A DNA stretch of 64,000 nt, from assembly GCF_007990545.2 (NCBI RefSeq), contig NZ_AP019829.2, forward strand, positions 310,001 to 374,000, written 5' to 3'. This document shows, piece by piece, positions 3,748-20,945 of this stretch. The translations under genes were made by a program, and so were the position numbers. The notes under the pieces are model-generated. The model made no database searches. It was not told where the DNA came from and saw nothing but the letters and a program-made list of their open reading frames with translations. This stretch comes from Leptotrichia wadei (GTDB taxonomy: Bacteria; Fusobacteriota; Fusobacteriia; Fusobacteriales; Leptotrichiaceae). The number at the start of each line of letters is the position of its first letter. Position 1 is the first letter of the stretch.

Positions 3748-3763
3748 CGAAAAAATATATTAT

Positions 3764-3839: not shown

Positions 3840-3845
3840 AAATAT

Positions 3846-3921: not shown

Positions 3922-3936
3922 TTTAAATAACCATAT

Positions 3937-4013: not shown

Positions 4014-4016
4014 TAT

Positions 4017-4093: not shown

Positions 4094-4104
4094 TTTGAAT
4101 TTAT

Positions 4105-4179: not shown

Positions 4180-4259
4180 TTTATTCTTTTAGAACCATAA
4201 TTTAAAATTGTGGTATTTTTTTTAAAAAGTTTATAATATTAATATTTTAATAGAGTTGT

Positions 4260-4346
4260 GGGTGGATGTCCGAACGGCTAAGGGACCGGTCTTGAAAACC
4301 GGCGAAATCGCAAGATGTCTGGGTTCGAATCCCAGTTCACCCGCCA
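4260..4346 (+). tRNA. tRNA-Ser (anticodon TGA)
   Basis: The acceptor is GGGTGGA / TTCACCC, there is a class II variable arm, the anticodon loop is CTTGAAA, and CCA is encoded. An 80-base AT-rich spacer separates it from the Glu gene. Confidence 0.94.
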
Positions 4347-4350
4347 TTAT

Positions 4351-4426
4351 GCCCAGATAGCTCAGTCGGTAGAGCAAGGGACTGAAAATCCCTGTGTCCG
4401 TGGTTCGATTCCGCGTCTGGGCACCA
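4351..4426 (+). tRNA. tRNA-Phe (anticodon GAA)
   Basis: The acceptor is GCCCAGA / TCTGGGC, the anticodon loop is CTGAAAA, and CCA is encoded. It is the last tRNA before the integrase module, so it is the natural candidate for the integration target. Confidence 0.95.
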
Positions 4427-4452
4427 TTAGAATAGCTAAAAATGTGATATAT

Positions 4453-4489
4453 AGTGCAAATCAGTGTTTATGCTGAATTGCACTTTTTT
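4453..4489 (+). terminator. Terminator of tRNA cluster 1
   Basis: A stem AGTGCAA..TCAG / CTGA..TTGCACT with a short loop is followed by a T run. Confidence 0.88.
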
Positions 4490-4562
4490 CTTTTATTTAT
4501 AGTACTTTGCAGTTTTATCCTGTCTTAATCTGTTTCTATTTATTTCAACACATTAAAAATTT

Positions 4563-4595
4563 ATTGGCAACTTACTGGCAACTTATTGGCAACTA
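4563..4595. repeat. Three 11-bp direct repeats next to the integrase (candidate arm-type sites)
   Basis: Units ATTGGCAACTT, ACTGGCAACTT and ATTGGCAACTA run head to tail with an 11-bp period, immediately before the integrase stop codon. Short tandem direct repeats between an attachment site and an integrase gene are typical arm-type binding sites of tyrosine integrases. The assignment is inferred from position. Confidence 0.6.
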
Positions 4596-4597
4596 TT

Positions 4598-6446: not shown

Positions 6447-7079
6447 TTTTATACGGGCAAGGCGGGATTAAATGGCTCACAGCTTGGGAATTTTACTGGA
6501 AATGTTGTTAGTGCAGGAGGCTCAGCCGTAGGAGGGATTACATCTTTATTGGGAAGTGCGGCAGTTGGCGGACTAGGTGCGGCAGTTGGTGCAGTTGTTG
6601 GCGGAGTGTCTACTGGAGGAGCAGGAGCAATAGCAGGTATGAAGACAGGAGCGAAAATAGGCTCTAAAATAGGGAAATATCCTGGAAATCTGACTGCTTC
6701 GGCTGCTGAAAATGCAGGAAAGGCAATAAAAGTAATGACAATGAACTTTGATCCGATTGCTTCAGGCGGAAAAGTAAAAAATATGGCCAGTGATGGAATT
6801 AAAAAATTTATGGGCAATAAAAAAAATGATACGAAAGATACCGAAGAAAATAAATCAGGAAATGCGGATAGAACAGCTGATACAAAAGAGGCTGAAGAAA
6901 AAATAAGAAGTGATAATAGCAAGAATGCCTCAAATAAGGATTTTCAAAAACAGACAAACGAAGGAAATAAAGACACGCAAAAACATTCAGAAAATACAAA
7001 AACAAAAGACACTAAGAACAGTAATAACGAGACTTTTGCAGAATCTGAAATGAGGAGAGAAAAGGACAGCAAGAAATAA
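6447..7079 (+). pseudogene. C-terminal fragment of a large Gly/Ala-rich protein (possibly conjugal-transfer or secretion-related)
   Basis: The frame is open from 6447 without any start codon or ribosome site; three stops lie just upstream. It begins with a Gly/Ser/Ala-rich stretch, continues through a membrane-like Gly/Ala segment (repeated GG and AG pairs, residues about 25-60), and ends in a highly charged, Lys/Asn/Asp-rich tail of about 80 residues. Such a hydrophobic Gly/Ala block with a charged low-complexity tail occurs at the C-terminus of TrbL/VirB6-like conjugation proteins, but this is a weak resemblance. It is best read as a gene cut at the junction with the repressor module. Confidence 0.5.
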
Positions 7080-7132
7080 AATATGTAAGGACAATGACAA
7101 TAGAATATTAATCTAGTCTTAAAAAATTCAGA

Positions 7133-7160
7133 TTGAAAAAACTATTAGATATGATATAAT
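7133..7160 (+). promoter_or_regulatory. Promoter for the small GNAT-associated pair
   Basis: TTGAAA and TATAAT with a 16-base spacer, 39 bases before the ATG at 7199. Confidence 0.6.
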
Positions 7161-7198
7161 ATTATTGTAAAAATAGAAATTTAAAAGATGTGATAAGA

Positions 7199-7384
7199 AT
7201 GGCAACTTCAAGTTTTACAACAGAATTAAAATTTGATACAGAGGAAAAAGTTTCATTATTTTTAGAAGCTATTGAAAATGCAAAAAATAATAAACCGCTA
7301 GATATAGATGTAGAATATGAATTTATTAAGGGGAATGATATTAAAAAATTTTTTGAAGAAACTTCTGAAAAGAAAGGAGAATAA
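7199..7384 (+). CDS. Small protein paired with a GNAT gene (candidate antitoxin)
   Basis: A 61-residue acidic protein starting at ATG 7199 (an earlier in-frame start at 7190 lacks a ribosome site). The N-terminus (ATSSFTTELKF) and the helical middle are typical of short proteins encoded immediately upstream of GNAT acetyltransferases in Firmicutes and Fusobacteria, where such pairs are often predicted toxin-antitoxin modules. Its stop codon overlaps the start of the next gene (TAATG), which indicates translational coupling. Function is inferred from this arrangement. Confidence 0.6.
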   Translation: MATSSFTTELKFDTEEKVSLFLEAIENAKNNKPLDIDVEYEFIKGNDIKKFFEETSEKKGE

Positions 7385-7602
7385 TGAAATTTACTACGTT
7401 TTCTTTAACAGGAAATAAAATTTTAAAAATTGCGTATGAGTTATTGTTAGAAATTAGACAGAAAATTAGAGTAAAATTTATTTGGCTTGAATGTCAAAAT
7501 AATGAAAAAATTTTGAATTTTTATCAAAATTTTGGATTTTCTAAAATAGATAATTTTATTTCTGAAAGTGGCTATAATGTAATGATAATGGAATTAAAAT
7601 AG
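7384..7602 (+). pseudogene. GNAT acetyltransferase remnant (internal deletion)
   Basis: The 72-residue product keeps a GNAT-like N-terminal start and then jumps directly to the C-terminal part of the fold: FIWLECQNNEKILNFYQNFGF, the usual beta5-alpha4 segment. The acetyl-CoA binding V/I-x-x-x-Q/RxxGxG/A loop and the first three strands are missing. A full GNAT would be about 150-170 residues. The toxin half of this apparent pair is therefore probably inactive while the partner gene remains intact. Confidence 0.65.
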
Positions 7603-7625
7603 TTATCATAAAGAATAGGAGAATA

Positions 7626-8071
7626 ATGAAATTATATGAAAGAATAATACCAAAAACTTCTTCAACAAGTTATATATCTGGATGGGAAGCATTGAATATT
7701 CCTGATGAAAATAGAAATACTGCTGACTGGCATCCAAGGACTTATTTATTTTCTTATGATAAAGACAAGGCAATAAATCTGTATAACACGACAAATGTTT
7801 TAGGAAATTCTGGAATAAAGAAAAGAATAATAATTATCTAAACAAAAGGGAAGTGTATATTGCTAATTTTCCAAGAGCAATTGCAGATTTGGTATTAACA
7901 ATGAAAGATTACCAGTTATCTTCGCTTCATAACTGTTGCAATGATTTTTTAAATGAGGATGAAACAGAACATCTTTATCAATATCTTAGAAGTATAAAGG
8001 ATAATCCAAGAGTGGATGAGTTTCTTAAATATGAATTTACTGTAAGATATTTTAATGATAAAAAATTATAA
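7626..8071 (+). pseudogene. Hypothetical protein gene with a one-base frameshift
   Basis: Two consecutive reading frames make one protein when joined at about 7822-7828. Frame one gives the N-terminal part ending at GNSGIKK; the -1 frame continues as NNNYLNKREVYIANFPRAIA to the stop at 8071. Together they encode about 148 residues with no motif I recognise. The shift corresponds to the loss of one base in an A-rich stretch. It follows the GNAT pair by 23 bases and could belong to the same small module. Confidence 0.6.
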
Positions 8072-8278
8072 TTGAATATTGTAAAAATAAAAATTTATAA
8101 AGAGATGAAATGTCGCAATTAATATTGCAATTTATGATATTTTAGAATGTAACTTATTTAGATTAAATAATTTTTAAGTGTTGCCCTTTTCTTTTTTTTG
8201 TTGTATATTATAGTATGTTTTATTGTTTCTTTTTTTTGGATTTAATCGTTTTTTGTTTACTAAGAAAGGAAAAAATTT

Positions 8279-9934
8279 ATGAATAAAAAGGCAGTTCCAG
8301 TAGGGGTGGAAAATTTTGAAAGAATAATAAAAGATGGATATTATTATGTGGATAAATCATTATTAATAGAAAAAATACTTGAAAATAGAACTCCTGTAAC
8401 ACTTTTTACAAGACCAAGAAGATTTGGAAAAACGCTTAATATGTCAATGATTAAATATTTTTTTGATGTCAAAAATAAAGATGAGAATAAAACACTTTTT
8501 GAAAATTTAAAAATATCTGATAGTAAATATATGAGTGAACAAGGAAAATATCCTGTAATATTTATTTCGTTAAAGGATTTGAAAGCGGATACTTGGGAAA
8601 TGTGTCGTTTAGAAATAAAAAAAGTAATTTCAAAACTTTATCGTGAATTTCAATATATTACAGAGAAGATGGATGAAGATGATAAAGAGATATATAATTC
8701 CATTAAAAATAGAAAAAATGATATTGATCTCAATACTTCACTGGAACTTTTGTCTGATTTTCTTTGTGAATATTATGGGAAAAAAGTAATAGTTTTGATA
8801 GATGAATATGATTCTCCAATAATAAATGCTTTTGATAAAGGTTATTACAATGAAACGATAGAATTTTTTCAAGTATTTTATAGTTCTGCATTAAAGACAA
8901 ATGATTCATTGAAATATGGCATTCTTACGGGAATAACAAGGATTATAAAGGAAGGAATTTTTTCAGGATTAAACAACCTTTATGTGAATACTGTACTTAG
9001 CAAAAATTATGCAGAATACTTTGGGCTTTTGGAAAGCGAAGTAATTGAAATGCTTGATTACTTTAATATGAAATATAAAATTGAAGAAGTGAGAAGCTGG
9101 TACAACGGCTATCTTTTTGGAAATGAGCAAATATACAATCCATGGTCTATTGTCAATTATTTAAGAGAAAAAGAAATAAAATCATACTGGGCAAATGTTT
9201 CTGGAAATACACTTTTAGAAAATATGCTTGAGAATGCTGGAGAAAGTGTTTATGCTGATTTAAAGAAATTTACTGACGGAGAAAGCATTGAAAAATATAT
9301 TTCGGATGGGACTACAATAAAAAGTCTTTTGAGTAATGATGATGAGATTTGGCAGTTGTTTTTATACAGCGGGTATTTGACAAAAGCTGAAAAACAGGCA
9401 GAAAGAACAGAATCCAAAAATACTTATAATTTAAAAATACCGAACAGAGAAATAAGAAGTTATTTTGGAGATTTATTTTTGAATAGATTTTTTGGAACAG
9501 AAGTAAAGACAAAGACTTTAATAAAAGCTCTTGAAAATGGAGATATTAGAAAATTTGAGAAAACATTGAGTGAAATAATGATAAACATGTTAAGCCATTT
9601 TGATTTAGACAGTGAAATGGAAAAAATTTATCAGGTATTTATGATAGGGCTTGTAGGATTTCTTATGGGAAGATATGAAATTATCTCAAATAATGAGAGC
9701 GGATATGGAAGATATGATTTGGCGATGATACCAATAAAAAGCAATGAGAAGGCATATCTTATGGAATTTAAAATTTCAAAGACTGAAAAAGGAATGAGAG
9801 CAAAGGCAGAAGAGGCTTTGAAGCAGATAGATAAGAAAAAGTATGATACAAGGTTGAAGGCTAGAGGAATAATGAATATTTTGAAGATTGGGATAGCGTT
9901 TTATGGTAAAAGTGTGAAGGTTGTTAGTAAATAA
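8279..9934 (+). CDS. AAA-ATPase-like protein with C-terminal PD-(D/E)XK nuclease domain
   Basis: A 551-residue protein of the AAA-ATPase_like / PDDEXK_9 architecture. Near residue 45 is the Walker A-like TRPRRFGKT, near 168-173 the Walker B VLIDEYDSP, then the family segments WYNGY-FG and NPWSI around 275-300. The C-terminal nuclease-like block has YGRYDLAMIP and, about 15 residues on, MEFKISK, the D and E-x-K of the PD-(D/E)XK fold. The family is abundant in Fusobacteria, Bacteroides and Clostridia; proposed roles are DNA binding/cleavage or mobile defence, none firmly established. A paralogue lies at 29604-31310. It looks intact although surrounded by broken genes. Confidence 0.85.
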   Translation: MNKKAVPVGVENFERIIKDGYYYVDKSLLIEKILENRTPVTLFTRPRRFGKTLNMSMIKYFFDVKNKDENKTLFENLKISDSKYMSEQGKYPVIFISLKDLKADTWEMCRLEIKKVISKLYREFQYITEKMDEDDKEIYNSIKNRKNDIDLNTSLELLSDFLCEYYGKKVIVLIDEYDSPIINAFDKGYYNETIEFFQVFYSSALKTNDSLKYGILTGITRIIKEGIFSGLNNLYVNTVLSKNYAEYFGLLESEVIEMLDYFNMKYKIEEVRSWYNGYLFGNEQIYNPWSIVNYLREKEIKSYWANVSGNTLLENMLENAGESVYADLKKFTDGESIEKYISDGTTIKSLLSNDDEIWQLFLYSGYLTKAEKQAERTESKNTYNLKIPNREIRSYFGDLFLNRFFGTEVKTKTLIKALENGDIRKFEKTLSEIMINMLSHFDLDSEMEKIYQVFMIGLVGFLMGRYEIISNNESGYGRYDLAMIPIKSNEKAYLMEFKISKTEKGMRAKAEEALKQIDKKKYDTRLKARGIMNILKIGIAFYGKSVKVVSK

Positions 9935-9976
9935 AAGTTAGAAATTAAAATCAAATTTCAAAAATTTGCAATTTAG

Positions 9977-10399
9977 AACGTAAAAGGACAAGGAGAAGAA
10001 ATTTTATTAGAAAAGGAAAGCATCTTGGATGTTAAATTTCTTTCAGAATCACCTGATGATTCAAATGCAAGAGCAGCTGATTTAGGAATTATTCTTGAAA
10101 TCAAAGGAAAAATTTTGGCAGTTGCAAATGGAGATGCTGAAGATGATACAAGAAAGGTTGCTCAATGGTCATTAGTACCTGCTGAATCAAGCGACGCATA
10201 CAGAACTGTGGCATTAGAAGTAATATCTGCAGGGCAAATGGTAAGAAAAATTGATATGACAAATGCGTTTGTTGTTGATTACGAAGAATCTTATGGAGAT
10301 CAAGCAGGAACTGGAACATTCTCGTTGAAAATCAAACAGAAAAAAGAGAAAGTTAAGGAAGTTGCAATTGAAGGTGGATATGCTGCTCAGGAAGCATAA
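9977..10399 (+). pseudogene. Hcp/TssD-like tube protein, 5'-truncated
   Basis: The frame is open after a TAG at 9974 and lacks an ATG; the only in-frame start (TTG 10025) has no good ribosome site. The C-terminal half (residues about 75-125: RTVALEVISAG, KIDMTNAFVVDY, GTFSLKIKQKK) is an Hcp-like beta-barrel end and aligns with the tail of the larger Hcp-like protein at 12676-13569 (FELYFPKMYVSGF, GYFELELKQ). Hcp forms the inner tube of contractile injection systems and also chaperones small effectors. The first strands appear to have been lost at a junction just after the AAA-ATPase gene. Confidence 0.6.
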
Positions 10400-10460
10400 T
10401 GTGACACAAGGAGGTAGACAATCCCGTCTATCTCCTTTTATTTTTATAGGAGGAAAAACA

Positions 10461-11030
10461 TTGATATACATAAAAATTATTAACCTATTAATATTTTTTT
10501 CTATATTTGTTAATATAAAACCAAATATTTTTATTATTATAATATTAACAATATTTTTTTCAATAATAAATTCTATGAAAAAATCAGATTTAAAACTTTA
10601 TATTGATAAAGAATTATTAATATTTCAGATAATAACCTCATTTTTTTTGTATAGGAAAACTAATTTTTTTGAAATAGATATGAAATCTTACATGTTTTAT
10701 TTTTATAATTATGCAAAACTATTATTTTTAGGTATAAATATAGCAATGATAATTTATTTTTTTAAAAGAAAAACAAAAGATTTTTATTATTACTATTTTT
10801 ATATAATATTTTTATTTCTTTTAATATTTGAAAATAGATTTGATATATCTTTTCTTTCATTATTGGAATTTTTTATTCATATAATAGATTTGCTATATTC
10901 ACAGTACTTGTTAGATTTAATAATGTTATTTATAATAATAAAATTTTGTGTAGTAAAAAAAAGTAAGAATAGTTTATATTTATTTCTTTTATTAAATATA
11001 TATATAAAATTAAAAATATTTATTGTTTAA
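10461..11030 (+). CDS. Multi-pass membrane protein, hypothetical (candidate immunity protein)
   Basis: A 189-residue protein starting at TTG 10461, 6 bases after AGGAGG. A longer frame opens at 10362 but overlaps the previous gene. The sequence is extremely rich in Phe, Ile, Leu and Tyr, with about five to six predicted membrane segments and short basic loops. No motif is recognised. It is sandwiched between an Hcp-like fragment and a candidate effector, the position where T6SS loci often keep immunity proteins; that role is inferred only from the neighbourhood. Confidence 0.6.
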   Translation: MIYIKIINLLIFFSIFVNIKPNIFIIIILTIFFSIINSMKKSDLKLYIDKELLIFQIITSFFLYRKTNFFEIDMKSYMFYFYNYAKLLFLGINIAMIIYFFKRKTKDFYYYYFYIIFLFLLIFENRFDISFLSLLEFFIHIIDLLYSQYLLDLIMLFIIIKFCVVKKSKNSLYLFLLLNIYIKLKIFIV

Positions 11031-11043
11031 GGAGGATAATTTT

Positions 11044-11828
11044 TTGAGTAATAAGAAAGAAGAAACAAATAATTTTGTAAAGAGAAAAGGTACAAAAGAT
11101 GAAAATAATGATATAAAAATGAGTAAACTAAATATTTCATTGAAAGAAAAGGATGCAAATTTTTTAATTAAAATAATTGTTAATGAAGTGTTAAAAGTAG
11201 CATCGCCTGTATCTGTTGCGGCTAAATGTTTAAGATATTATTTGGCATATCCTTTGCGTATATCCAACCAGAAATATAAAGCTGGACAATTATTAGGATT
11301 ACCAAAAGGGAAATTATACGATATATGTAAAAAAATATATCCTGAACCAAGAGATTATTTGTCCTTAGGTTATAGTTTTTGGAAAAGAGGAGATTTAAAT
11401 ATACATATAGATATTGTAAAAAACTATTTAATTAATAATGTAAGATGGGCTCATAATAATAATAATATTCCAAAAGAGAAAATACTTTCATTTTATAGTT
11501 ATAGAGAAGTTAAAAGTTTTTTTAGAGATAAGGATAGAACAAATAAAGCTGCAGCAACAGATTTGTATTATGCAATTGGGGATGGAAATCATTTATTTGG
11601 AAAAGTTCATACTATTGATATGAAGAGAAGAAGGTTTCAAATACTATTAGTTTTATTTGACGAATATAATTGGGATAACAGTGCTACTTATTTTATGAAG
11701 ATAAAAAAAATACGAATGATCCATATTTGCTATCAGTAGAAACAAAATGGTTTAAAGAATTAGAAAGGAAACAATTAGCAAAACCTTTTATAACATTTTT
11801 CATTGATCCAATAACGGTAAGTTATTAA
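11044..11828 (+). pseudogene. Candidate injected effector, frameshifted near its C-terminus
   Basis: Translation probably starts at TTG 11044, 8 bases after AAGGAGG. The first frame runs to about residue 215; a one-base loss at 11691-11694 (TTTT where TTTTT is expected) then truncates it. In the -1 frame the protein continues through TNDPYLLSVETKWFKELER to a stop at 11828, giving about 261 residues. The C-terminal region has an AxGDGxxxFG segment followed by a hydrophobic strand and DEYNWD; a similar glycine strand plus D-x-Y-x-[FW]-D pattern occurs in several bacterial toxin domains including colicin-M-like ones, but the match is too loose to name it. No signal peptide is seen. It follows the membrane protein by 13 bases. 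Confidence 0.5.
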
Positions 11829-11863
11829 AAAATATTTAAAACGAAAGGAATTATTTTAAAGGA

Positions 11864-12639
11864 ATGTTTATAAATAAATATCCAGTTTTTAAAAAAGGAA
11901 ATGTGCTGGAAAAGGAAGATTTAGATTTATTAAGGGATAACCCGCTTGAAGTATTGAGCTTGATGTATTCTGACAAAAGTAATGGAATAATAAAAGGGTT
12001 CGACTTGATACCCAATTACAGCGAGAGAATAGTGACAATTACAAAAGGAATGGCAAAATGCAACGGGGAACTTTTTTGGATGAAGGAAGATTATATATTT
12101 GATATGCCAAAACAAGAGGAACGATATATATTAAAACTTAAATTAGTGTCAAATATAGAAGAAAGAAAATATTATGTAAGGGAAGGACGTTTTGTGCTGG
12201 AGCTTGGTGAAAATGTTAATGAAGATGAAATTGAGATAACAAGGTTTATCACAAGAGAAGGGGCTGAATTGAGGAATGATTATCAAAATTTCAGAGATTT
12301 GAGAAGAGATTTTAACTTGATGGAGATTATAAATACAAAATATTCTTCAGCACATAAATGGGGAACTTTTCATCCACATGTATTAAAACTATGGGGAAAG
12401 GAAGTTTCGAAAATCTTGATATTTTTGATATAAATTTCTATGTAACCTGTCTACAGCAGGATGTTATAGAACGAGATGTTATAACTTCATATATAAATGC
12501 AAAACTTAATTTGACAGATGAAAATTATACAAATGAACAAATGTTCAGACATTTATTGACAATATTAGATAATTTAGGAACAGAAAGAAAAAAAGTTGAG
12601 AAAAAACGAATAATACCTAGAAAAATAATAGTAGAATAA
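11864..12639 (+). pseudogene. Injection-system-associated conserved protein, frameshifted
   Basis: Two frames overlap and join at about 12393-12397 (GGGG run): the first ends in HPHVLKLWG and the -1 frame continues as KGSFENLDIFDINFYV to the stop at 12639. Joined, they encode about 258 residues. The N-terminal part has an IKGFDLIPNY...VTITKGMAKCNGELFW segment, a strand-rich pattern found in tail-fibre- or baseplate-associated proteins of phage-like particles, and the C-terminal part is helical. It lies directly upstream of an Hcp-like gene. The family is not one I can name. Confidence 0.5.
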
Positions 12640-12675
12640 AAATTTAAATAAAAGAAATAAACAGGAGGAAAAATT

Positions 12676-13569
12676 ATGAAATTTAGAGTAAGTATAGCTG
12701 GAGGAAGTAACAATACATCAAATAATCCATTTGGAGGACTTGGTAATGTTTCGGTTCCAAGTGTGGCAATGAACTTTGTATCAAATGGAGAAAATAAAAA
12801 TCCAATTTCAAATGCAATGGGAGGACTGACACAGCAAGGCGGAGTAATTCTTTCAAGTGATGAAATACTGGAAGTATCTTACAGCACAAACCCAATATAT
12901 GGTGAAACGATGAGTGCTTCTCAAAGCCAAGTGACATTAAGAATTGTAGGAAGACTACTTCCCACAGCTTCGGAAAACAATAGTCCTGAAGATGAAGGCG
13001 AAGGGATAGTTAGCGGAATAATGGGAACACTTGGTATGGGAACATTATTTAACCAATATAAAAGTGTAAAACACTTATTTGACAAAGATAACGAAGCAGG
13101 AGAAGAACTTCCAGAAGCCTCGTTAAGCAGCAACCTTTTATCATCAAGCGGAATTACTGAACCAGTCGCTAAAAAAGCAAAAGAAAGCAGTAAAAGCAAA
13201 CTTGTTTCTCAAGTTTTAGGAGTAAGCTCAACACTGCCAATGACAAATTCATTTACAAATGGCATAGGAAACAGTCTGAAAGGAATGTTCGGAGGACTTG
13301 GAAATTTTGGAGAAAGTAATTTATATGATCAAAATAAGCAGAATGTGAAAGAATTATCATTGTGGGCGATGACTTACGGAGATGAAAAATCAACTAGGGA
13401 TGTAATGGTGCAGACAGATTTAGGGGGAGGGAAGACGTTTGAACTTTATTTTCCTAAAATGTATGTTTCTGGTTTTGATCAAAGATTTAATACTAGAGCT
13501 GGAGAAGGATATTTTGAATTAGAATTAAAACAGACAGCTTTCAATGAAAGTGATATAAATTTAAATTAA
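12676..13569 (+). CDS. Hcp-like tube protein with long insertion (contractile injection system)
   Basis: A 297-residue protein with a perfect AGGAGG site before the ATG. Residues 1-100 are strand-rich (GGVILSSDEILEVSYS..., then QSQVTLRIVGRL). Residues about 100-215 are a low-complexity Gly/Ser/Asn-rich insertion. Residues 220-297 form an Hcp-like C-terminal barrel half (SLWAMTYGDEKSTRDV, KTFELYFPKMYVSGF, GEGYFELELKQ). Classical Hcp is about 160-170 residues, so this would be an extended version. The family call comes from the C-terminal pattern shared with the 9977-10399 fragment and from linkage to VgrG-like and Tae4-like genes. Its last 383 bp are duplicated at 15343-15725. Confidence 0.6.
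   Translation: MKFRVSIAGGSNNTSNNPFGGLGNVSVPSVAMNFVSNGENKNPISNAMGGLTQQGGVILSSDEILEVSYSTNPIYGETMSASQSQVTLRIVGRLLPTASENNSPEDEGEGIVSGIMGTLGMGTLFNQYKSVKHLFDKDNEAGEELPEASLSSNLLSSSGITEPVAKKAKESSKSKLVSQVLGVSSTLPMTNSFTNGIGNSLKGMFGGLGNFGESNLYDQNKQNVKELSLWAMTYGDEKSTRDVMVQTDLGGGKTFELYFPKMYVSGFDQRFNTRAGEGYFELELKQTAFNESDINLN
13187..13569 (+). repeat. 383-bp direct repeat, copy 1 (3' part of the Hcp-like gene)
   Basis: The partner is 15343-15725, at an offset of 2156 bases with no insertion or deletion. The first three quarters differ by scattered single bases only, while the last 36 codons differ strongly. This suggests an older duplication with selection or exchange at the 3' end. Confidence 0.88.
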
Positions 13570-13585
13570 AAGGAAGTTATAGCAT

Positions 13586-14275
13586 ATGAATAGAAAAGGT
13601 AAAATAACAGCAATAGAAATTAATGAAATAAAAAATGCTTTAAAGTATGGTTATATACATTATAGAGAATTAGATAGTTTTTTTAGAAATAATCTTTTAG
13701 GCTCAGATCCATTAATGATAAGGACTTATGTTGAAGAAATTACATTTAAAGTAGTAAAAACTATAGAAGATAATATAAACCCAACTAAACTTCCTGATAA
13801 TGCTACGAGAAATTATTATTATAAACTATACCAATATATTAAAAGATCAGGTACAATTTTTAGAATCATAGATGATGATGATAAATTAAGAGAAGTAAGA
13901 AACGGTCGAGAAGTTTATGAACATTTATCTTATTTATTGGCAGAAGGGAAATATAATAAAGAAGTTAGAAAGAGTAATAAAATAACCAAAATTATTCAAA
14001 GCATTATAGAAAAAGGTTTACAAGAAATGCAAAAAAAAGTTTCTTCATTTGTTTTTGGGCTTTTAGAAATAAAAGAAGTAGAAAACCAAAGAGATTTATT
14101 AATAATTTATGTATTATCTACTTTATCAGTTGATCAAAAAGAGATAGAAAGAATAATAAAAGAACTAGATTCAGAATTAAGAAAAGGAAAAGATGCTAAT
14201 AACAATAATAAATATTTATTTCAAAGACGGATTCTTATAAAAATATTAGATATATATAAAAATTTTTTGAATTAA
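13586..14275 (+). CDS. Hypothetical helical protein (candidate effector cargo)
   Basis: A 229-residue, mostly helical soluble protein without signal peptide or recognised motif. It begins 16 bases after the Hcp-like gene with its own AGGAAG site, so the two are probably translated together. It is followed immediately by two membrane-anchored paralogues. The order tube - cytosolic protein - exported small proteins resembles tube-linked effector/immunity cassettes, so a cargo role is possible. This is purely contextual. Confidence 0.55.
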   Translation: MNRKGKITAIEINEIKNALKYGYIHYRELDSFFRNNLLGSDPLMIRTYVEEITFKVVKTIEDNINPTKLPDNATRNYYYKLYQYIKRSGTIFRIIDDDDKLREVRNGREVYEHLSYLLAEGKYNKEVRKSNKITKIIQSIIEKGLQEMQKKVSSFVFGLLEIKEVENQRDLLIIYVLSTLSVDQKEIERIIKELDSELRKGKDANNNNKYLFQRRILIKILDIYKNFLN

Positions 14276-14288
14276 GAGGAAATATAAT

Positions 14289-14723
14289 ATGAAAAAATGT
14301 ATAACTATAGTATTAATTTTTTTCTCATTAATTATTGTATTTATAATTAGAGAAAAACAAAATAATATAAAATGTAAAATAAATTCATTAGAAGAAGAAA
14401 AAGAATATTACTTTAATTCGTATCAAGAACTTAAAAAGAAAAATATAAAGTTATACAAGTTAGACGATAACCAAAATTTGGTGGAAGTAAAAAGTAGCTG
14501 GGATATCATAGTTTCTTTAGGAATGATTCTAAGTTATGGTGAAAGTAAACGAAATTTTTTTGATTCTAAAAAAGTTGTTTTAAGTAAAATGTTGGGGTTA
14601 GAAAAAAATGAAAAAAATATTTTAATTTATATTCCAAAAGAAAAAGAAAAAGATATACTTTCTAAAGCTTCGAAATATCAAAAAATGAATGCATGTAGTC
14701 TAATGGAAATATTAAAAAACTAA
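14289..14723 (+). CDS. Membrane-anchored hypothetical protein, tandem paralogue 1 (candidate immunity)
   Basis: 144 residues: an N-terminal hydrophobic anchor at about 5-22 (ITIVLIFFSLIIVFII), then a soluble domain predicted to lie on the outer face of the inner membrane. It shares layout and motifs with the next gene (YYFNSYQELKKKNIKLYKLDD here; EYYQKNYKIFKERNIKFYIDD there; both end in C-x-L-[MV]-E-[IV]-L-K). Tandem divergent copies of a periplasm-facing protein next to an Hcp-like gene are typical of immunity genes. No known family is recognised. Confidence 0.6.
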   Translation: MKKCITIVLIFFSLIIVFIIREKQNNIKCKINSLEEEKEYYFNSYQELKKKNIKLYKLDDNQNLVEVKSSWDIIVSLGMILSYGESKRNFFDSKKVVLSKMLGLEKNEKNILIYIPKEKEKDILSKASKYQKMNACSLMEILKN

Positions 14724-14738
14724 AAGAGGAAATCAACT

Positions 14739-15215
14739 ATGAATAAATTTTTTAAATTAACATTATTGTTTGTTTCCATTATTGTGGTTATCTTACTTTA
14801 TAAAAATCATTCAAAAAGAGTAAAAGTAAATGTGTCCGATTGCCCAAATAATCGCTATATGGCAAACAGAAAAGAATACTACCAAAAAAATTATAAAATT
14901 TTTAAGGAAAGGAACATAAAATTTTATATAGATGATGAAAATGGAAAAATGCGAGAAATTACTAATCAAGATGAGTTTTTTACTTCATTAAGAGAAGCCA
15001 AAGATTATGCTTATGAAATAGTTGGGAAAAAATGGTTTTATACAAAAAGAAAGTTATTTGGGATAGCATTTGGAATTGATAAGGAAGCAAAAATAAAATA
15101 TATTTTAGTACCAGAAGAAGAAAAGAAAAATATATTAAAAAATATAGACAAATATCCTGAAAAGAATATAGAAAATAGATGTGTATTAGTAGAAGTGTTA
15201 AAAGGTAATTATTAA
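14739..15215 (+). CDS. Membrane-anchored hypothetical protein, tandem paralogue 2 (candidate immunity)
   Basis: 158 residues with an N-terminal anchor at about 6-22 (KLTLLFVSIIVVILLY) and a soluble domain related to the preceding gene. It carries extra Cys residues (DCPNNRY, NRCVLVEVL) that could form a disulfide outside the cytoplasm. It starts 15 bases after its paralogue, so the pair probably arose by tandem duplication and forms one transcription unit with the Hcp-like gene. Confidence 0.6.
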   Translation: MNKFFKLTLLFVSIIVVILLYKNHSKRVKVNVSDCPNNRYMANRKEYYQKNYKIFKERNIKFYIDDENGKMREITNQDEFFTSLREAKDYAYEIVGKKWFYTKRKLFGIAFGIDKEAKIKYILVPEEEKKNILKNIDKYPEKNIENRCVLVEVLKGNY

Positions 15216-15294
15216 GAATATTAGAACTAAAATTAACTTTGGATTTTAAATTAAAAAGTAAAAATGAAATATTAAAACTGAAAAGGGAGAATAT

Positions 15295-15375
15295 ATGACA
15301 GATTATTATAAAATACTAGGTGTTTCAGAAGATGCTGATGCAGCAGTAAAAGCAAACTTGTTTCTCAAGTATTAG
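15295..15375 (+). pseudogene. J-domain protein, N-terminal stub fused out of frame to Hcp-like sequence
   Basis: The first 16 codons ([16 protein letters not shown]) match the start of the intact J-domain gene at 17546 base for base except for isolated changes (offset 2251). At 15343 the sequence switches to the 3' part of the Hcp-like gene, in a different frame, and stops after 26 codons. The switch occurs at a shared GCA trinucleotide. A ribosome site (AAAGGGAG) is still present. It is a recombination scar, not a functional gene. Confidence 0.85.
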
Positions 15376-15725
15376 GAGTAAGCTCAACATTGCCAATGAC
15401 AAATTCGTTTACAAATGGAATAGGAAATAGCCTAAAAGGAATGTTTGGAGGACTTGGAAATTTCGGAGAAAGCAATTTATATGATCAAAATAAGCAGAAT
15501 GTGAAAGAGCTATCATTGTGGGCAATGACTTACGGAGATGAAAAATCAACTAGAGATGTAATGGTGCAGACAGATTTGGGAGGAGGAAAGACGTTTGAGC
15601 TTTATTTTCCTAAAATGTATGTGGATAGTTTTAATCAAAGTTTTAGTGTTAGAGGTGGAGAAGGGTATTTTGTTTTAAATTTAAAACAAACAGGATTTAA
15701 TGAAGATAATAATACTTTAAAATAA
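15343..15725 (+). pseudogene. Hcp-like C-terminal fragment (repeat copy 2)
   Basis: This is copy 2 of the 383-bp repeat. It encodes the last 127 residues of the Hcp-like protein and lacks the N-terminal barrel half. An in-frame TTG at 15390 could start a 111-residue product, but no ribosome site is visible. The end (MYVDSFNQSFSVRGGEGYFVLNLKQ) differs from copy 1 at about half the positions over the last 35 residues, so it may carry an alternative C-terminal variant stored as a silent cassette. Confidence 0.75.
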
Positions 15726-15752
15726 AAATTATAAAAGTAATGGAGATAAGTG

Positions 15753-16898
15753 ATGAAAATTAGAAAAATATTAATAAAAAATATAATTATAATATTATCT
15801 ATTTTAATTTTTTTTATTAATTGTACTAAAAAAATAAATAATAAGAATTTAGAAAAAAGAAATAGTACAGTAGATTTAAAAGAAAAGTATTTAAATTATG
15901 GAATAGATTTAGAAAATGTAAAAGATAATTTAGTGATATTAAAAAAAATAAATAATAATTATTTTATAAATTTTAAAGATCCTATTTTAGTAACTTGTAA
16001 ATATAATAATAATAATATTGAAAAAATTTTTTTTGAAAATGTTAATTTAAACGAAATTTATAATATTGATTGTATTTCAAATTATGATAAGAATAGAGAA
16101 TATTTAAAATGGTTTATTAATTTAAAAAGTATAGAAAATTATGAATCCAAAGATTTAAAAAATTTACCTCCTAAACTAAAAAAACAAATAGAAACAATAT
16201 CAATTGATGAGTTCTATAGAGGAGATACCTTTGATATTAATGAAATTATTGAGTTTAAAAATTTAAAAAATATTGCAGTGGCAGATAAAAAATTAAAAAA
16301 CTTTAATAAAATGGAAAATTTTTTAGAAATAGAAGAAATTAATTTAGATTCAGTAGAAATAGTAGATAGTGATTTAAGTATTTTTGATAATAAGTTAAAT
16401 AATTTTACTAAATTGATGAAGTTTAAAATTTTTGATGTGAAAGAATTTAAAAACATAAACATATTAAATAATTCCCCTAATTTAAAAATTTTAAACATTG
16501 CTGGAGTTGAAAACATCAAAGATATAGATATTTTAAAAAATTTTAAAAATTTAGAAGAAGTTGATATTTCTAATAATAAAATAAGTGATATTTCTCCATT
16601 AAAAAATTCTAAAAATATTAGAATACTATCAATAAGTAATAATTTAGTTAAGGATATTGAGGTAATAAAAAATTTTAAAAATTTAAAAGAAATTTATATT
16701 CCTCACAATAAAATAAAAGATTTAACTCCCTTGAAATCTTTAGAATTTTTAGAATACATTCTTTTAGATGATAAAATAAGTATAACAGAAATTAAAAAAA
16801 ATTTACCTAAAAGATTATATAAAAATGCAAAAATATACACAGATGACGCTGCCTATTTAGGATTAATAGAAGTGTCTTATGAAAAAGGAGAAAATTAA
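15753..16898 (+). CDS. Leucine-rich-repeat lipoprotein
   Basis: A 381-residue protein starting at ATG 15753 (GTG 15750 is possible). The signal peptide ends in a lipobox-like LIFFINC, Cys at about residue 25. From about residue 170 to 350 there are internalin-type leucine-rich repeats of about 22 residues, for example LKNLEEVDISNNKISDISPL and LKEIYIPHNKIKDLTPL. It is likely an envelope-anchored binding protein. It ends 2 bases before the Tae4-like amidase gene, so the two are co-transcribed; it could be the amidase's immunity partner or an unrelated surface protein. Codon use is extremely AT-rich. Confidence 0.75.
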   Translation: MKIRKILIKNIIIILSILIFFINCTKKINNKNLEKRNSTVDLKEKYLNYGIDLENVKDNLVILKKINNNYFINFKDPILVTCKYNNNNIEKIFFENVNLNEIYNIDCISNYDKNREYLKWFINLKSIENYESKDLKNLPPKLKKQIETISIDEFYRGDTFDINEIIEFKNLKNIAVADKKLKNFNKMENFLEIEEINLDSVEIVDSDLSIFDNKLNNFTKLMKFKIFDVKEFKNINILNNSPNLKILNIAGVENIKDIDILKNFKNLEEVDISNNKISDISPLKNSKNIRILSISNNLVKDIEVIKNFKNLKEIYIPHNKIKDLTPLKSLEFLEYILLDDKISITEIKKNLPKRLYKNAKIYTDDAAYLGLIEVSYEKGEN

Positions 16899-16900
16899 AA

Positions 16901-17388
16901 ATGTATAATATAGTAAAAAATTATCCAAGATATGAGACTATTAATAGTAAAGATTTAGTAAAAAAACTATTTAATTCAAGAAGATTACTAGATTTACCAG
17001 CTCCTAATACATGTGCAATAAGAGTATCAGAGGCTTTAAATAAAGCAGGTTTTATAATAGACGGTACTATTTTACCTAAAAATGAATATGAAAAAGGGAA
17101 AAATGATAAATGGTATGTATTAACAGCTATGGGAATGAAAAGATATTTAGAAAAAAAATATGGAGGGCTTGCTAGATATTCTGTTAATACTCCTGAATTA
17201 TATAGAAGATTTCGTCAATATATTGATGTACTAGGATCAGGAATTGTTATATATTACAGTCAAATTCTAAAAGCTTTACAGGACATGCTGATATATGGTT
17301 TGAAGAAAAATTTGTTGGAAAGAATTATATACATAATAAATGGGTTAAAGAAGTTTATATTCTTCCAAGCTTTAAACTAAAAAAATAA
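16901..17388 (+). pseudogene. Tae4-family T6SS peptidoglycan amidase, frameshifted
   Basis: The N-terminal part holds the nucleophile Cys38 in PNTCAIRVSEALNKAGF, matching the N-x-C-x-IRMS-x-x-L-N-x-[ST]GF motif of Tae4 NlpC/P60-like amidases, followed by the KWYVLTAMGMKRYLEKKYG segment. In the first frame the C-terminus is nonsense. A one-base loss near 17261-17266 restores, in the -1 frame, SFTGHADIWFEEKF (catalytic His codon at 17284) and VKEVYILPSF to a stop at 17388. Tae4 enzymes cut the D-Glu-mDAP bond of peptidoglycan after delivery to the periplasm. There is no signal peptide, as expected for an injected effector. As sequenced it would be inactive. Confidence 0.82.
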
Positions 17389-17545
17389 ATTTAATATTGC
17401 AAACTATAAATAAAATAAAAAACTAGATGATAGCAGCAATATATTTTAGTTATGAATATTTTTTATTTCATTGTATATTAAATTGTATAGATAGAAGTTT
17501 TTAATATTTTAAATAAAAAAAATGAAAAGGAGTGGAGTTTTTATT

Positions 17546-17980
17546 ATGACAGATTATTATAAAAGACTAGGTGTTTCAGAAGATGCTGATGCAAAAGAGA
17601 TAAATGCAAAATACAGAAAATTAGCCATGAAATATCATCCAGACAGAAATCCTGATGATAAGAAGGCTGAGGAAATGTTTAAGACAATCAGCGAGGCGTA
17701 TGAGATACTTGGTGATGAGAATAAAAGAAAAGAATACGATGAGAAAAGGAAGAATAAGGGAAATACTGGAAGTCAAAGATTTGGTGAGAAGAAATCAAGC
17801 AGGGCAGAGCAGAACAGTGAATCAGCTAAAAGGGGGGCTGAGGCATTTTTCCGTAATTTTTCAGCAAATCCAAATGATATAAAGAATATGTTTGAAAGTG
17901 CTAAGGATGGTTTAAAGGAAGGGGTGAAAAATGAAGAAATTTATTTTGATAATCTTTTTTTGTTTGTTAATAGGATGTAG
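17546..17980 (+). CDS. Small J-domain (DnaJ-like) protein of the injection island
   Basis: 144 residues starting at ATG 17546 ([10 protein letters not shown]), 8 bases after TGGAG; an upstream in-frame ATG at 17522 precedes that site. Residues 1-68 are a J domain with the HPD motif ([10 protein letters not shown]), the part that stimulates Hsp70 ATPase. The rest is a polar, Ser/Arg/Glu-rich tail without zinc fingers or the DnaJ C-terminal domain, so it is not the housekeeping co-chaperone (that is at 21031-22218). It overlaps the lipoprotein start by 50 bases. Its own 5' end is also present as a stub at 15295, which ties it to the mobile cassettes. Confidence 0.85.
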
Positions 17981-19157
17981 AAATCAAGGAAATGATGTGG
18001 TAATAAAAGATATTGATGATGTTTATTTTTATCTGGAAAATAAGAAAAATCCTGAAAAAGCTCAATTAATGGCAAGAATTGTTTTTGAACTGGAAAGGGA
18101 AAACTATGAAGAAGCAGAAAAGTATTTTTTAAAACTGGCAAAATACGATAAAACCGCTTATGTTTCGCTTGCAAATATGTATTATGAACATATTGATAAA
18201 AAAGAAGGGGAAAAGAGGTATGAAATAGCTTTTGAAAAAGGAAATAAAAGGGCAGGTACAATTTTGGGGATGATTGCTGAAGATAATAATGATTATAAAA
18301 AGGCGGAAGAATGGTACAAAAAATCGTTGGATAAAGAGAATATGTTAGGATATAAATTTTTTGCTAAATTTTTATATAAAACAAATAGGAAAAATGAGGC
18401 TGAGAAATATTTCATAGAAGCTGGAAATCTCAAAGATGCGGATTCGATGTTATACTTAATAAAAATATATTATATGAAAAAAGATACTGAAAAATTGAAA
18501 TACTGGCAAGACAAAATATTAAATACAAAGGAAATTTTTAAATTTGACGATGAAACGAATGATTTATTGAAATATAGTTTGTCAAAAGATAAGATAGATA
18601 AGGAGTTTTTTGAATTGTATATAAAAGGGGAAGAAAGTGTTTTAAAGAAAGACTATGAAGAAGCAGAAAAATATCTTGTACAAATGGAAAAGCTAAAAAA
18701 AGAAGGAATTTTATATACAGCTGATTTTTATTATCGTTTTAAGGATGAAAAAGAAAAGGGAATAGAAAAGTATAAAAGAGCATATGAAAATGGCATAAAG
18801 GAAGCAGCAGCTTTTATGGGAATTATTGAGCATAGAAACAGGAATATTGATGAAGCAAAGAAATGGTATAAAATAGCGTCAGAAGCAGGAAATACTAATT
18901 CACAAATATATTTGGCACAAATTCTGAAAGAAGAAGGCGATAAAACCGAAGCTCTAAATTTGTATTTAAAAGCGGCTGAACTAAAAGATTATAGAGCGAT
19001 AAATTATTTATTAAAATATTACTACAGAGAGAAAAATTTGAAAGAAATAAAAAAATGGGTAGATGTAGTTAAAAAATCAAATGGACTAAAAAATTATAGT
19101 GAAGTTGACAGTAGAAGAATAAAAGAATATGAAAAATTTTTAAATAAAAATAATTAA
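17931..19157 (+). CDS. TPR/Sel1-like repeat lipoprotein upstream of VgrG
   Basis: 408 residues. The signal peptide has lipobox LLIGC with Cys at about 16. The mature part is made of about nine helical repeats of 34-38 residues with Sel1/TPR signatures ([55 protein letters not shown]). It is likely a periplasm-facing protein-binding scaffold. In T6SS loci of other bacteria, Sel1-repeat lipoproteins next to VgrG act as immunity proteins to phospholipase effectors, so an immunity or adaptor role is plausible here. It starts inside the 3' end of the J-domain gene and lies 75 bases upstream of vgrG. Confidence 0.78.
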
Positions 19158-19232
19158 AATTTATAGTTAGAAAAGTTATAATTGCAAATCAATTTTAATT
19201 TAAAATAAAAAATATAAAAGGTAGGTTAAAAA

Positions 19233-20927
19233 ATGGAGAATAATTTAAATAATCAGAAGCCAGTGGAATTTTTTTCTGCTGAAAGAATAAAGATAGAAAT
19301 AGATGGACAGCAGATACTTTGGAGAGATATGAATCTTGAAATAGATTCAAAGATAGGGGAACATACAATTGGGAAAATAAAATATACGGCATCACCGAAC
19401 CAGTTAAGTTTATACGATGCCCTGATAGATAAAAAAGGCGACAAGACAATAGTAGTTACAGGAAGAAGCAACATATCGGATGAAGCGGGAAATGCTACAG
19501 ATAAAATATTCTTAAATGGAGTTATAAGCAAACTTAGGATAAAGGAAACAAAGGCAGGAGCATTGGCAGTTGAATTATTATGCAGTTCAAAGAGCATACT
19601 TCTTGACAGAATACCAAGATACCGTTCATTTCAGGATCCAACACTTACGTATACAGATATAGCACAGGAAGTGAATAAAAATTATAATGATGGGGAAACA
19701 TTGGTAAATATAGGGGAAGATATGCAGGCAGTCCCAAGAATGACAATCCAGTATAATGAAACAGACTGGGAATACTTAAAGAGAATAGCATCGTATACAG
19801 GACAGCCACTAATGGCAAATTCAAATAAAGTTCTGGTAGGATTTTTCAAGAATATGCCAGCACAGACACCAAACTTGACATATTCATATTTTGGAAAGGA
19901 AACAGAGGAGGAAAGAACATATTACAGGGTAGAGGGGACAGAAGTGTATTCAGTATCAACCCCAATAAAATTAAAAATTAGAAACAGAGTATCAGGCGAA
20001 GAAGTGGAAAATGACTACTATGTAATAGAAAGCAGAATATACAATGAAGGAAACACCTTAAAGTGCGAATACAAGCTAGGAAAGCAGACAGATTATTTTG
20101 TAGATCCAATACCGCACGAAAAGATAAGAGGAGCAGTGATAGAAGCGAGAACAGTACATATTGCAAGAACAGATGAGAGCAAGAGTGAGCATGGAAGAAC
20201 TGATGGAAGTTCGAATAATCTTGAAGGTAGAACTATGGGAATAAAGCCTGTAAATATATATGTTGCTGAGGAGCAGGAAAAAAATAATAACAGAAGTCAG
20301 GAAGTGAAAGAAAGCGATATTGCAGTTATGACAGTTGACTTGACAGAAGGGCTAAGAAAACTTGGAGGAGCAGTACAAAGTGAAGCGGATAAATATGCTG
20401 GAAAAAGTTATTTCCCATATGTAACTCCATACAGTCAGACAAATACAGGATTTACGCCTGCACCAGAGCCAAATGACAGGATAGCACTTTATTTTCCAAG
20501 TGAAAACGAAACGCATGCGTTGGTAATGGGAGCGGTAAATAATAACGGTAATGGAAGGTTTACTAATCCTGATAAAAGGAACTTTACATTAGGACCAAGT
20601 CAGGCAGCTAGAGGAGGAACACCTGCGAATGAAGGGAAACCGATGTACAACTTTACTTTGGATAATGAGAAGTTTATTGTTAATGTAGGAAATTTAATTA
20701 GTTTGACTTCAAATGGTACGGCACAGATGACAGCAAAAAGTAATATAGATTTAACTTCAACTGATGCTATAGCAACATTGAGAGGTAAAAGTTGTGTAAA
20801 AGCAATAGCGATTGAAAATGCAGAACTTATGGCAAAAAATGTCAATGTTGGACTTGGAGAAGGTGGAAAAGCGAATCAAACTAAGATAAAAGAAATAAAA
20901 ACTGCACTCAAAACTCAAATGAGATAA
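19233..20927 (+). CDS. vgrG: VgrG-like spike protein (contractile injection system)
   Basis: 564 residues. Residues about 1-280 resemble the gp27/phage late-control D hub, including IQYNETDWEYLKRIASYTG at about 168-186, the most conserved VgrG signature. Around 390-450 is a gp5-like OB-fold domain (YFPYVTPYSQ, DRIALYFPSENETHALVMGAV). The C-terminus (510-564) has beta-helix-like SNIDLTSTDAI repeats and then stops: no effector extension and no obvious PAAR domain. VgrG trimers cap the Hcp tube and carry effectors across membranes. It looks complete, unlike most of the island, and ends in a terminator. Confidence 0.87.
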   Translation: MENNLNNQKPVEFFSAERIKIEIDGQQILWRDMNLEIDSKIGEHTIGKIKYTASPNQLSLYDALIDKKGDKTIVVTGRSNISDEAGNATDKIFLNGVISKLRIKETKAGALAVELLCSSKSILLDRIPRYRSFQDPTLTYTDIAQEVNKNYNDGETLVNIGEDMQAVPRMTIQYNETDWEYLKRIASYTGQPLMANSNKVLVGFFKNMPAQTPNLTYSYFGKETEEERTYYRVEGTEVYSVSTPIKLKIRNRVSGEEVENDYYVIESRIYNEGNTLKCEYKLGKQTDYFVDPIPHEKIRGAVIEARTVHIARTDESKSEHGRTDGSSNNLEGRTMGIKPVNIYVAEEQEKNNNRSQEVKESDIAVMTVDLTEGLRKLGGAVQSEADKYAGKSYFPYVTPYSQTNTGFTPAPEPNDRIALYFPSENETHALVMGAVNNNGNGRFTNPDKRNFTLGPSQAARGGTPANEGKPMYNFTLDNEKFIVNVGNLISLTSNGTAQMTAKSNIDLTSTDAIATLRGKSCVKAIAIENAELMAKNVNVGLGEGGKANQTKIKEIKTALKTQMR

Positions 20928-20945
20928 GAGATGCAGTTTTTTTAG
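20897..20945 (+). terminator. Intrinsic terminator overlapping the vgrG stop
   Basis: Stem AAAACTGCACTC / GAG-A-TGCAGTTTT spans the last codons of vgrG and is followed by a run of T. It closes the island's plus-strand unit. Confidence 0.85.

Follow-up and report, generated by a model that had tools for sequence, protein, structure and literature searches.

A probable decaying satellite of a type VI secretion-like contractile injection system in Leptotrichia wadei

Several published observations touch on the genes described here. A haloarchaeal contractile injection system (CIS) with a type VI secretion system (T6SS) mode shows that contractile systems of other kinds can also operate inside the producing cell (PMC11566945). 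Firmicutes were already listed for T6SS-type toxins in a 2012 survey (PMC3482391), and a 2016 commentary suggested that, given their DUF4280 genes, Gram-positive bacteria might possess a working phage-like translocation system (PMC5349215). A 2021 survey describes neighbourhoods of DUF4280 and Phage_GPD genes in Firmicutes with no conserved genes of T6SS or extracellular contractile injection systems (eCIS) beside them, and speculates on an unknown system (PMC8651086). Here we analyze an island of Hcp-like, VgrG-like and Tae4-like genes at positions 9977-20945 of a 64-kb stretch of the Leptotrichia wadei genome (contig NZ_AP019829.2, positions 310,001 to 374,000; hereafter the window). Island coordinates refer to this window, host-genome loci are given in coordinates of the whole contig, and genomes used for comparison are designated by G numbers. 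We conclude that the island is probably a decaying satellite of a T6SS-like contractile injection system, in our reading distinct from canonical T6SS, whose core is scattered over the host genome.

The island parts with counterparts in the tube, spike and baseplate of contractile systems are:

9977..10399, + strand: tube protein of the Hcp family that has lost its 5' end (124-aa open frame at 10025-10399)
11864..12639, + strand: TssK-like baseplate gene, broken (two overlapping frames, 11864-12433 and 12358-12639)
12676..13569, + strand: Hcp297 (297 aa), Hcp family with a long insertion; open frame intact, sharply bounded variable C-terminal tail
15297..15725, + strand: partial 3' copy of the Hcp297 gene, fused upstream to the first codons of a DnaJ gene
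19233..20927, + strand: VgrG spike with shortened C-terminus (564 aa vs 612 in sister genome G005)

An earlier note, made from this DNA alone, had claimed a VgrG-like gene, three Hcp-like genes or fragments and a Tae4-type amidase, and its interpretation as a whole is partly supported by the present analysis. As a single sequence, the VgrG-like protein matches Pfam Phage_GPD (E 2.7e-6) and NCBIfam vgr_GE (E 5.6e-6), both under their curated cut-offs. A profile of 27 relatives makes it a clear family member, matching VgrG structures as the note had anticipated (T6SS VgrG 8gra, E 1.9e-22; Pvc8, 4e-15; Afp8, 1.8e-9). The three Hcp-like elements (10025-10399, 12676-13569 and 15390-15725) were likewise borne out. 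The first shows 96.9% DNA identity over 9977-10457 to the intact Hcp gene of G005. It has lost the start codon and first five codons, with a TAG immediately before the first homologous codon, and its next possible start is a TTG at 10025, equivalent to residue 22 of the intact relative. The open frame alone reaches Pfam TssD at E 0.01, below the cut-off, and this model is touched by 16 of 35 members of the Hcp family (best E 3.4e-4); the profile of these 35 rows matches the solved Hcp1 structure 6bdc (E 0.0077, the best of two matches). This 124-aa truncated form also occurs in G002 and in a second island of G005, and G001 has a truncated match with one stop. For Hcp297, which the note had taken to be tube-like, profile-profile alignment with hhalign supports membership of the Hcp family (E 1.9e-15; 124 columns aligned, the long insertion lying between the two halves), but a PDB search with its own profile returned no relevant match. 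The third element is an 86%-identical copy of the 3' part of the Hcp297 gene (15390-15725), and the segment 15279-15724 has 93% DNA identity to the same partial-Hcp arrangement in G005. Both at 15297-15342 and at G005:C1:763751-764196, the first DnaJ codons are joined to Hcp297 mid-gene; this fusion, common to two genomes, is perhaps a recombination scar of cargo duplication.

The island also contains a gene overlooked in the earlier note, the TssK-like gene, whose first piece is 99% identical over 183 aa to an intact 260-aa gene. The note's statement that structural apparatus is missing therefore holds for the sheath, none of which lies in the window, but not for the baseplate. Its expectation that the host carries the apparatus of a little-studied lineage outside the window is supported by the following loci:

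418807-430074: operon of DnaJ, FHA, FHA, PP2C-like, PP2C-like, kinase, Hsp70-like and HlyD-like genes, named by similarity to G005 genes
732382-740163: second locus, with a 1305-aa DUF4280 protein, a small lipoprotein, the sheath and a TssK-like gene
739285-740163: TssK-like gene adjoining the sheath
1058401-1058838: intact Hcp
1403137-1410415: a shorter Hcp-like protein, two further proteins (285 aa and 425 aa) and VgrG, interspersed with other genes
1408871-1410415: core VgrG

The FHA, kinase and HlyD domains were recognized by Pfam on the G005 relatives and the PP2C domain by Pfam on one clostridial relative, while the name Hsp70-like reflects a motif seen by eye, for which Pfam finds nothing. 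DUF4280 scores over its cut-off in the host at 734506-734784, and would provide a PAAR-like tip. Of 13 congeners, the same ten have sheath, VgrG, Hcp, Hsp70-like and DUF4280 genes. G004 and G006 are without all five of these marker families, and G012, which retains nothing but stop-containing pieces of sheath and Hcp (C1:1178572-1178901), may have lost the core system recently. That genes at four separate places come and go together speaks for a single machine. Separately, the sheath-bearing island of G005 encodes a DUF4280-HINT-endonuclease protein (L061:14182-15888), a polymorphic toxin in which an intein-like cutter separates the tip from the nuclease.

The host sheath-family protein comprises 738 aa (737011-739227) and is 82% identical to a 721-aa relative in G005. 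Neither Pfam, run on 26 aligned members of the 721-aa family, nor a PDB profile search with the family gave a match that fits a sheath. For the AlphaFold2 model of the 721-aa protein (pLDDT 79.7, pTM 0.82), Foldseek candidates were re-ranked with VIA. Rows 1-38 of the 50 listed were all contractile phage tails, tailocins, eCIS or T6SS; these rows ranged from Z 22.4 to 14.2 (rmsd 3.4-7.1 over 272-344 residues), the first unrelated chain scored Z 6.2, and families missing from these lists are not thereby excluded. Among them were the Streptomyces CIS (Z 21.4, rmsd 3.5, 300 residues) and the eCIS entry 6j0n (Z 20.1, rmsd 4.0, 309 residues). Chains from phages, tailocins and eCIS align from near the N-terminus to about residue 710 of the model (6-710), and six T6SS entries align only from 292-319 onward. 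One chain spans the whole sheath fold and so seems to stand in for both TssB and TssC. On its predicted structure, the 738-aa protein thus appears to be a one-chain contractile sheath, which is a trait of the eCIS type.

A one-chain sheath is shared by phages, tailocins and eCIS, and the genes could accordingly be the remnant of a prophage, an R-type tailocin or a released eCIS instead of a cell-anchored, T6SS-like machine. The matches of the VgrG profile to Pvc8 and Afp8 point the same way, as do the ties by Z between the first part of the TssK-like model and phage baseplate and fibre proteins, and the presence nearby of a gene that is integrase-like by similarity only (4598-5617). Against such an origin, the sheath had no match in 50,697 phage records or in 72,556 plasmid records (tblastn, 1e-5), its fold itself being shared with phage sheaths, and the TssK-like model aligns over the greatest length with TssK and IglD. 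Furthermore, no capsid, tail-fibre or lysis genes were noticed in the corresponding operon of Clostridium frigidicarnis, the presence of FHA, PP2C and kinase genes points to regulation within the cell, and the core genes, which are dispersed, are found together in 10 of 13 congeners. We consider a phage, tailocin or eCIS remnant unlikely.

The TssK-like protein was modeled on the intact 260-aa relative from G005 (pLDDT 85.8). A PDB profile search with its family gave no relevant match, and Foldseek matched the model to TssK 5y0e (E 1.5e-5, prob 1.00), TssK 6n38 (4.9e-5) and IglD 8dql (1.7e-3). VIA gave Z 9.6, 9.5 and 9.5 at rmsd 6.5, 5.9 and 4.8, the three best TssK rows covering 204-223 of the 260 residues, and the best of them having Z 9.6, rmsd 6.5 and 223 residues. 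The C-terminal head of TssK is its membrane-docking part, and it seems absent here because the model ends where the TssK alignment runs on. With the caveats given below, the predicted fold is that of a TssK-like adaptor without the C-terminal head.

These results bear on whether a canonical T6SS (TssB/TssC, ClpV and TssJLM) might have been overlooked through genome divergence. The Hcp tube (supported by the 6bdc profile match and an intact host copy), the VgrG spike, the TssK-like fold and the Tae4-type effector are all T6SS parts, and silence from Pfam is weak evidence of absence, given that its TssK model failed to pick up the TssK-like protein. The sheath model, however, is one chain over the whole fold. 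In addition, Pfam VipB (TssC) found nothing in the one genome searched, that of the host, and Pfam TssM and TssF gave nothing over cut-off in 8 genomes; TssB, TssG, TssJ, TssL and ClpV were not searched. The VipB, TssM and TssF searches each had at least one control genome over cut-off. We regard an overlooked canonical T6SS as very improbable, and the system is not classed as one because a two-chain sheath was tested for and not found; in our view it would nonetheless work like one.

The relationship between the island and larger loci was examined in sister genomes. A VgrG search matched 20 of 40 genomes, with copies 68-97% identical in four sister genomes (G001, G005, G009 and G010) and a distant VgrG (~25%) in most congeners and some other genomes. 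In G005 and G009, the near copies lie in a 50-56 kb locus that opens with the 721-aa sheath, Hcp, the 260-aa TssK-like protein and Hcp297. The second G005 island (1797410-1817353) presents, in order, an ATPase gene, the truncated Hcp, a 220-aa gene, a 120-aa piece, the TssK-like gene, Hcp297, cargo, a partial Hcp, a leucine-rich-repeat (LRR) lipoprotein, Tae4, DnaJ, FHA and VgrG. Gene order in the window agrees with this, except that FHA is missing and a lipoprotein gene stands before VgrG. Its junction between ATPase gene and truncated Hcp is common to G001 over 8171-10456 (one match, 84.8%) and is also present in G002, whose remnant, like that of the window, is flanked by dnaJ and by the tRNA/acyl-ligase side (frames judged by eye). 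Homology to the sister islands stops at 17902, in the DnaJ gene, and a different segment with the lipoprotein gene begins at 17930. Gene order, shared junction and the DnaJ/lipoprotein deletion together argue for a deletion remnant. By these sequence comparisons, the island is best described as what is left of a larger locus, its genes being orthologous to the sister locus that bears a sheath in G005 and G009, and not as the clean orphan effector island that the earlier note had proposed.

What the island has lost comprises the sheath, the 5' end of Hcp and the intact reading frames of several genes. Within G005 itself, some genes of one island have lost their single open frame and lie in several pieces, although their intact counterparts in the other island are 99-100% identical (L064:870-3379 vs L062), and one of the two copies is decaying within one genome. 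It is possible, though on balance we doubt it, that the window island consists of pseudogenes alone and now does nothing, all the work falling to the core elsewhere, and this would be compatible with a satellite origin. The truncated Hcp, broken TssK-like gene, broken amidase, truncated DnaJ and shortened VgrG fit a relic, as do the split or truncated genes that the G001 and G002 islands also contain. Hcp297, VgrG, the 229-aa gene and two lipoproteins nevertheless keep long frames, with 83-100% protein identity to the closest sister copy.

The remaining genes of the decaying satellite are mostly candidate cargo and immunity genes:

10362..11030, + strand: membrane protein, 222 aa (hydrophobic by eye)
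11023..11739, + strand: candidate Hcp-linked cargo, 238 aa; frame seemingly broken near the 3' end, by eye
13586..14275, + strand: candidate cargo gene (229 aa) directly 3' of Hcp297, proposed from its place
14289..14723, + strand: candidate immunity gene, hydrophobic N-terminus (99% to G002)
14739..15215, + strand: candidate immunity gene, paralogue of 14289-14723 (30% identity between the two)
15750..16898, + strand: LRR lipoprotein, candidate immunity to the amidase (LRR models)
16901..17380, + strand: Tae4-type amidase, frame broken before the C-terminal part (Pfam Tae4)
17522..17902, + strand: DnaJ-domain gene, 3' end deleted (Pfam DnaJ, 5.1e-27)
17931..19157, + strand: repeat-containing lipoprotein (TPR/Sel1-like by eye), 408 aa (83% to G001:1011877-1013121)

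Searches of the window proteins against Pfam, NCBIfam and PHROGs left most of the cargo without a name. The exception is the amidase, for which the Tae4 claim stood (E 2.2e-10; 41.1 bits vs a cut-off of 27). Only residues 36-95 are matched because the reading frame changes after this first part; in the G005 relative the model matches residues 35-137 (E 1.8e-16), a complete domain. The lipoprotein before it matches internalin-type LRR models (E 4.3e-12, far below their cut-offs) and is 96% identical to G005:1808696-1809844, likewise upstream of Tae4. The 229-aa product of 13586-14275 has no significant family match in the three databases and is 100% identical over 212 aa to a G002 gene in the equivalent place. 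For 11023-11739, Pfam gave no match up to E 1; the protein shows 32% identity over 242 aa to G009:247533-248351, which stands after Hcp297 in that genome. The membrane protein encoded by 10362-11030 is a candidate immunity partner of this gene, and its weak relative G009:246939-247517 (28% over 144 aa) stands beside the relative of 11023-11739. The G001 counterpart of the 408-aa lipoprotein adjoins a relative of the DUF4280-type gene.

Other features were noted on the 5' side of the island and elsewhere in the window. Two related AAA-ATPase-type genes, 45% identical, lie at 8279-9934 and 29550-31310. The former stands at the truncated-Hcp junction in the window, in G001, in G002 and in the second G005 island, and a copy is also present inside the first G005 island; it may mark a deletion or transfer event. 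At 3660-5617, eight tRNA genes are followed by the integrase-like gene, which has weak similarity to a clostridial integrase. A comparison of exact 14-mers of 3601-4700 with 4701-32000 revealed no att-like direct repeat, the four matches being AT-rich or unrelated in place. Short open frames at 6549-8071, one of them Gly/Ala-rich, resemble debris of effector and other genes by the integrase.

The variable tail of Hcp297 bears on how such cargo may be exchanged. In eight copies (leaving out a partial copy in G009 and a broken one in G002), identity is 93-100% over the 50 residues that end with KMYV but 48-91% over the next 33. A 291-aa cargo gene directly follows full-length Hcp297 in G001, and its G005 and G009 relatives (93-95% identity) follow a partial Hcp copy, behind other cargo. 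This arrangement looks like sequential displacement on Hcp-like genes. A strict pairing of Hcp tail and cargo was considered and dropped, as the partial copies of the window and G005 share a 91% tail and carry different cargo. In Vibrio cholerae, effector-immunity arrays of the T6SS are described as formed by sequential displacement, with new cargo pairs entering behind a structural gene and old ones pushed downstream as appears to happen here (PMC5361080). Unlike in the Vibrio arrays, the anchor in these islands is an Hcp-like gene with a variable tail, and displaced cargo is marked by partial Hcp copies.

The distribution of the sheath extends beyond the Fusobacteriota. The 721-aa protein was matched in 41 of 51 hand-picked genomes (in G012 and G053 as fragments only), in 34 of 98 Fusobacteriota (including the G012 fragments and a partial match in G100) and in 9 of 391 genomes sampled from the class of C. 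frigidicarnis, that species included. Most clostridial matches share 50-59% identity with the G005 protein, and the most distant rows 28-30%. The latter include the divergent sheaths of L051 (Robinsoniella) and L052 (Lachnospiraceae, with two sheath genes), loci that hold the same 437-aa, 231-aa, TssK-like and VgrG families in a different gene order. In a sheath tree of 32 rows, 14 of the 15 fusobacterial rows group together (96/86), the position of G025 being unresolved; two changes are needed between the fusobacterial and clostridial groups, and one is not excluded. Between G005 and G009 the island sheaths hardly differ, which fits, without proving, a recent transfer of the island.

In C. 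frigidicarnis, a single operon encodes, in order, the sheath, Hcp, Hcp, DnaJ, FHA, FHA, PP2C, PP2C-like, 437-aa, 231-aa, Hsp70-like, TssK-like, 193-aa, VgrG, 200-aa, 174-aa and DUF4280 proteins. The system is not confined to Fusobacteriota; Clostridia hold most of the set in one operon. No ClpV-like gene was noticed in this operon (no ClpV profile search was made), and the HlyD-like and M23 proteins of the G005 locus were not noticed there. Among 41 annotated loci (38 from the VgrG search and three chosen by place; L110 and L111 belong to one genome, and L108 and L044 overlap), the Hsp70-like gene is present in 19, the 231-aa gene in 18, the 437-aa gene in 17 and the TssK-like gene in 16. The sheath (7 loci) and Hcp (6 loci) often stand at the edge of VgrG-centred stretches, four rows have VgrG only, and one is without any of the families. 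Tentatively, and with slightly less than even confidence, we propose a separate cell-anchored contractile lineage across diderm Fusobacteriota and monoderm Clostridia, with a one-chain sheath, a headless TssK-like protein, a DUF4280 tip, phospho-signaling, DnaJ/Hsp70-like proteins in place of ClpV, HlyD-like proteins in place of TssJLM in diderms, and recombining Hcp-linked cargo.

In the proposed mechanism, the sheath would polymerize around the Hcp tube on a TssK-containing baseplate, and its contraction would drive the VgrG/PAAR-like tip and cargo into neighboring bacteria. More boldly, firing might be gated by the kinase, phosphatase and FHA proteins, the DnaJ/Hsp70-like pair may remodel the spent sheath in the role that ClpV has in T6SS, and HlyD-like and M23 proteins could adapt the machine to a two-membrane envelope. 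Cargo-immunity pairs after Hcp-like genes would be exchanged by recombination in the shared Hcp body, partial Hcp copies being the scars. The amidase would cut prey peptidoglycan, and the lipoproteins or membrane proteins would serve as immunity partners of the amidase and other toxins.

A number of results weigh against a satellite of a T6SS-like machine. Contraction and injection are predicted here from genes and modeled structures, the sheath and TssK-like folds being known by predicted structure only, and the sheath assignment rests on VIA-align and AlphaFold2. Foldseek on the sheath model gave no match with E <0.001, the first sheath standing at rank 5 (E 0.53). For the TssK-like model, two proteins tie with TssK by Z: a baseplate protein of Staphylococcus phage phi812 (Z 9.3, rmsd 2.1 over 98 residues), which Foldseek also matches at E 1.1e-4 and 3.1e-4, and the tail fibre of a Haloferax virus (Z 9.0 over 127 residues); these phage and virus ties cover only the first part of the model (98-128 residues). 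The model stops at about residue 255, and in the three best TssK chains the alignment reaches residues 312-342. Pfam TssK gave nothing in 6 genomes; as it misses the TssK-like protein itself, this silence shows divergence more than absence. Pfam TssM (PF06761) was over cut-off in the control genome and in none of 8 genomes (TssJ and TssL not searched), TssF in none of 8, with one sub-threshold row (TssG not searched), and gp25 in none of 8, with five sub-threshold rows and nothing in the host genome. The 437-aa and 231-aa proteins, an overlapping gene pair in C. frigidicarnis, have no fitting PDB sequence match. Finally, the Hcp tail-cargo pairing is not strict, and the frame breaks, seen in a single assembly, could in part be sequencing errors.

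The open-access literature yielded no description of this system, and one elsewhere is possible. If the satellite reading is true, the sheath, tube and TssK-like genes would be the missing machine parts of the suspected Gram-positive system, which would be directly testable in culturable Clostridia and Fusobacteriota. The sole plasmid record near the island DNA (the ATPase gene, 78.7%) comes from an oral Leptotrichia; oral Fusobacteriota may therefore hold another contact weapon, a possibility to set beside work on actinomycetemcomitans (PMC12578953).

Compared with known systems, the genes described here resemble T6SS (subtypes i-iii) in the Hcp tube, VgrG, the TssK-like protein, a PAAR-like DUF4280 protein and a Tae4-type effector. 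Kinase, PP2C and FHA genes also occur in Pseudomonas T6SS. The likeness extends to the Francisella system, where the TssK-like protein finds its match in IglD and the DUF4280 protein is IglG. In contrast with T6SS, the sheath is one chain instead of TssB plus TssC, the TssK-like protein is without the C-terminal head, no TssM or TssF was recognized by Pfam in 8 genomes, DnaJ and Hsp70-like genes stand in the operon, and the set is also found in Clostridia. With eCIS (PVC, Afp and the Streptomyces CIS), the system shares a one-chain sheath and a VgrG related to Pvc8/Afp8; unlike eCIS, it has TssK-like and phospho-signaling genes, no eCIS-type operon was seen around them, and no fibre gene was noticed. 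The DUF4280/Phage_GPD neighborhoods of Firmicutes comprise the same families, which are here tied to a sheath, Hcp and a TssK-like gene (PMC8651086).

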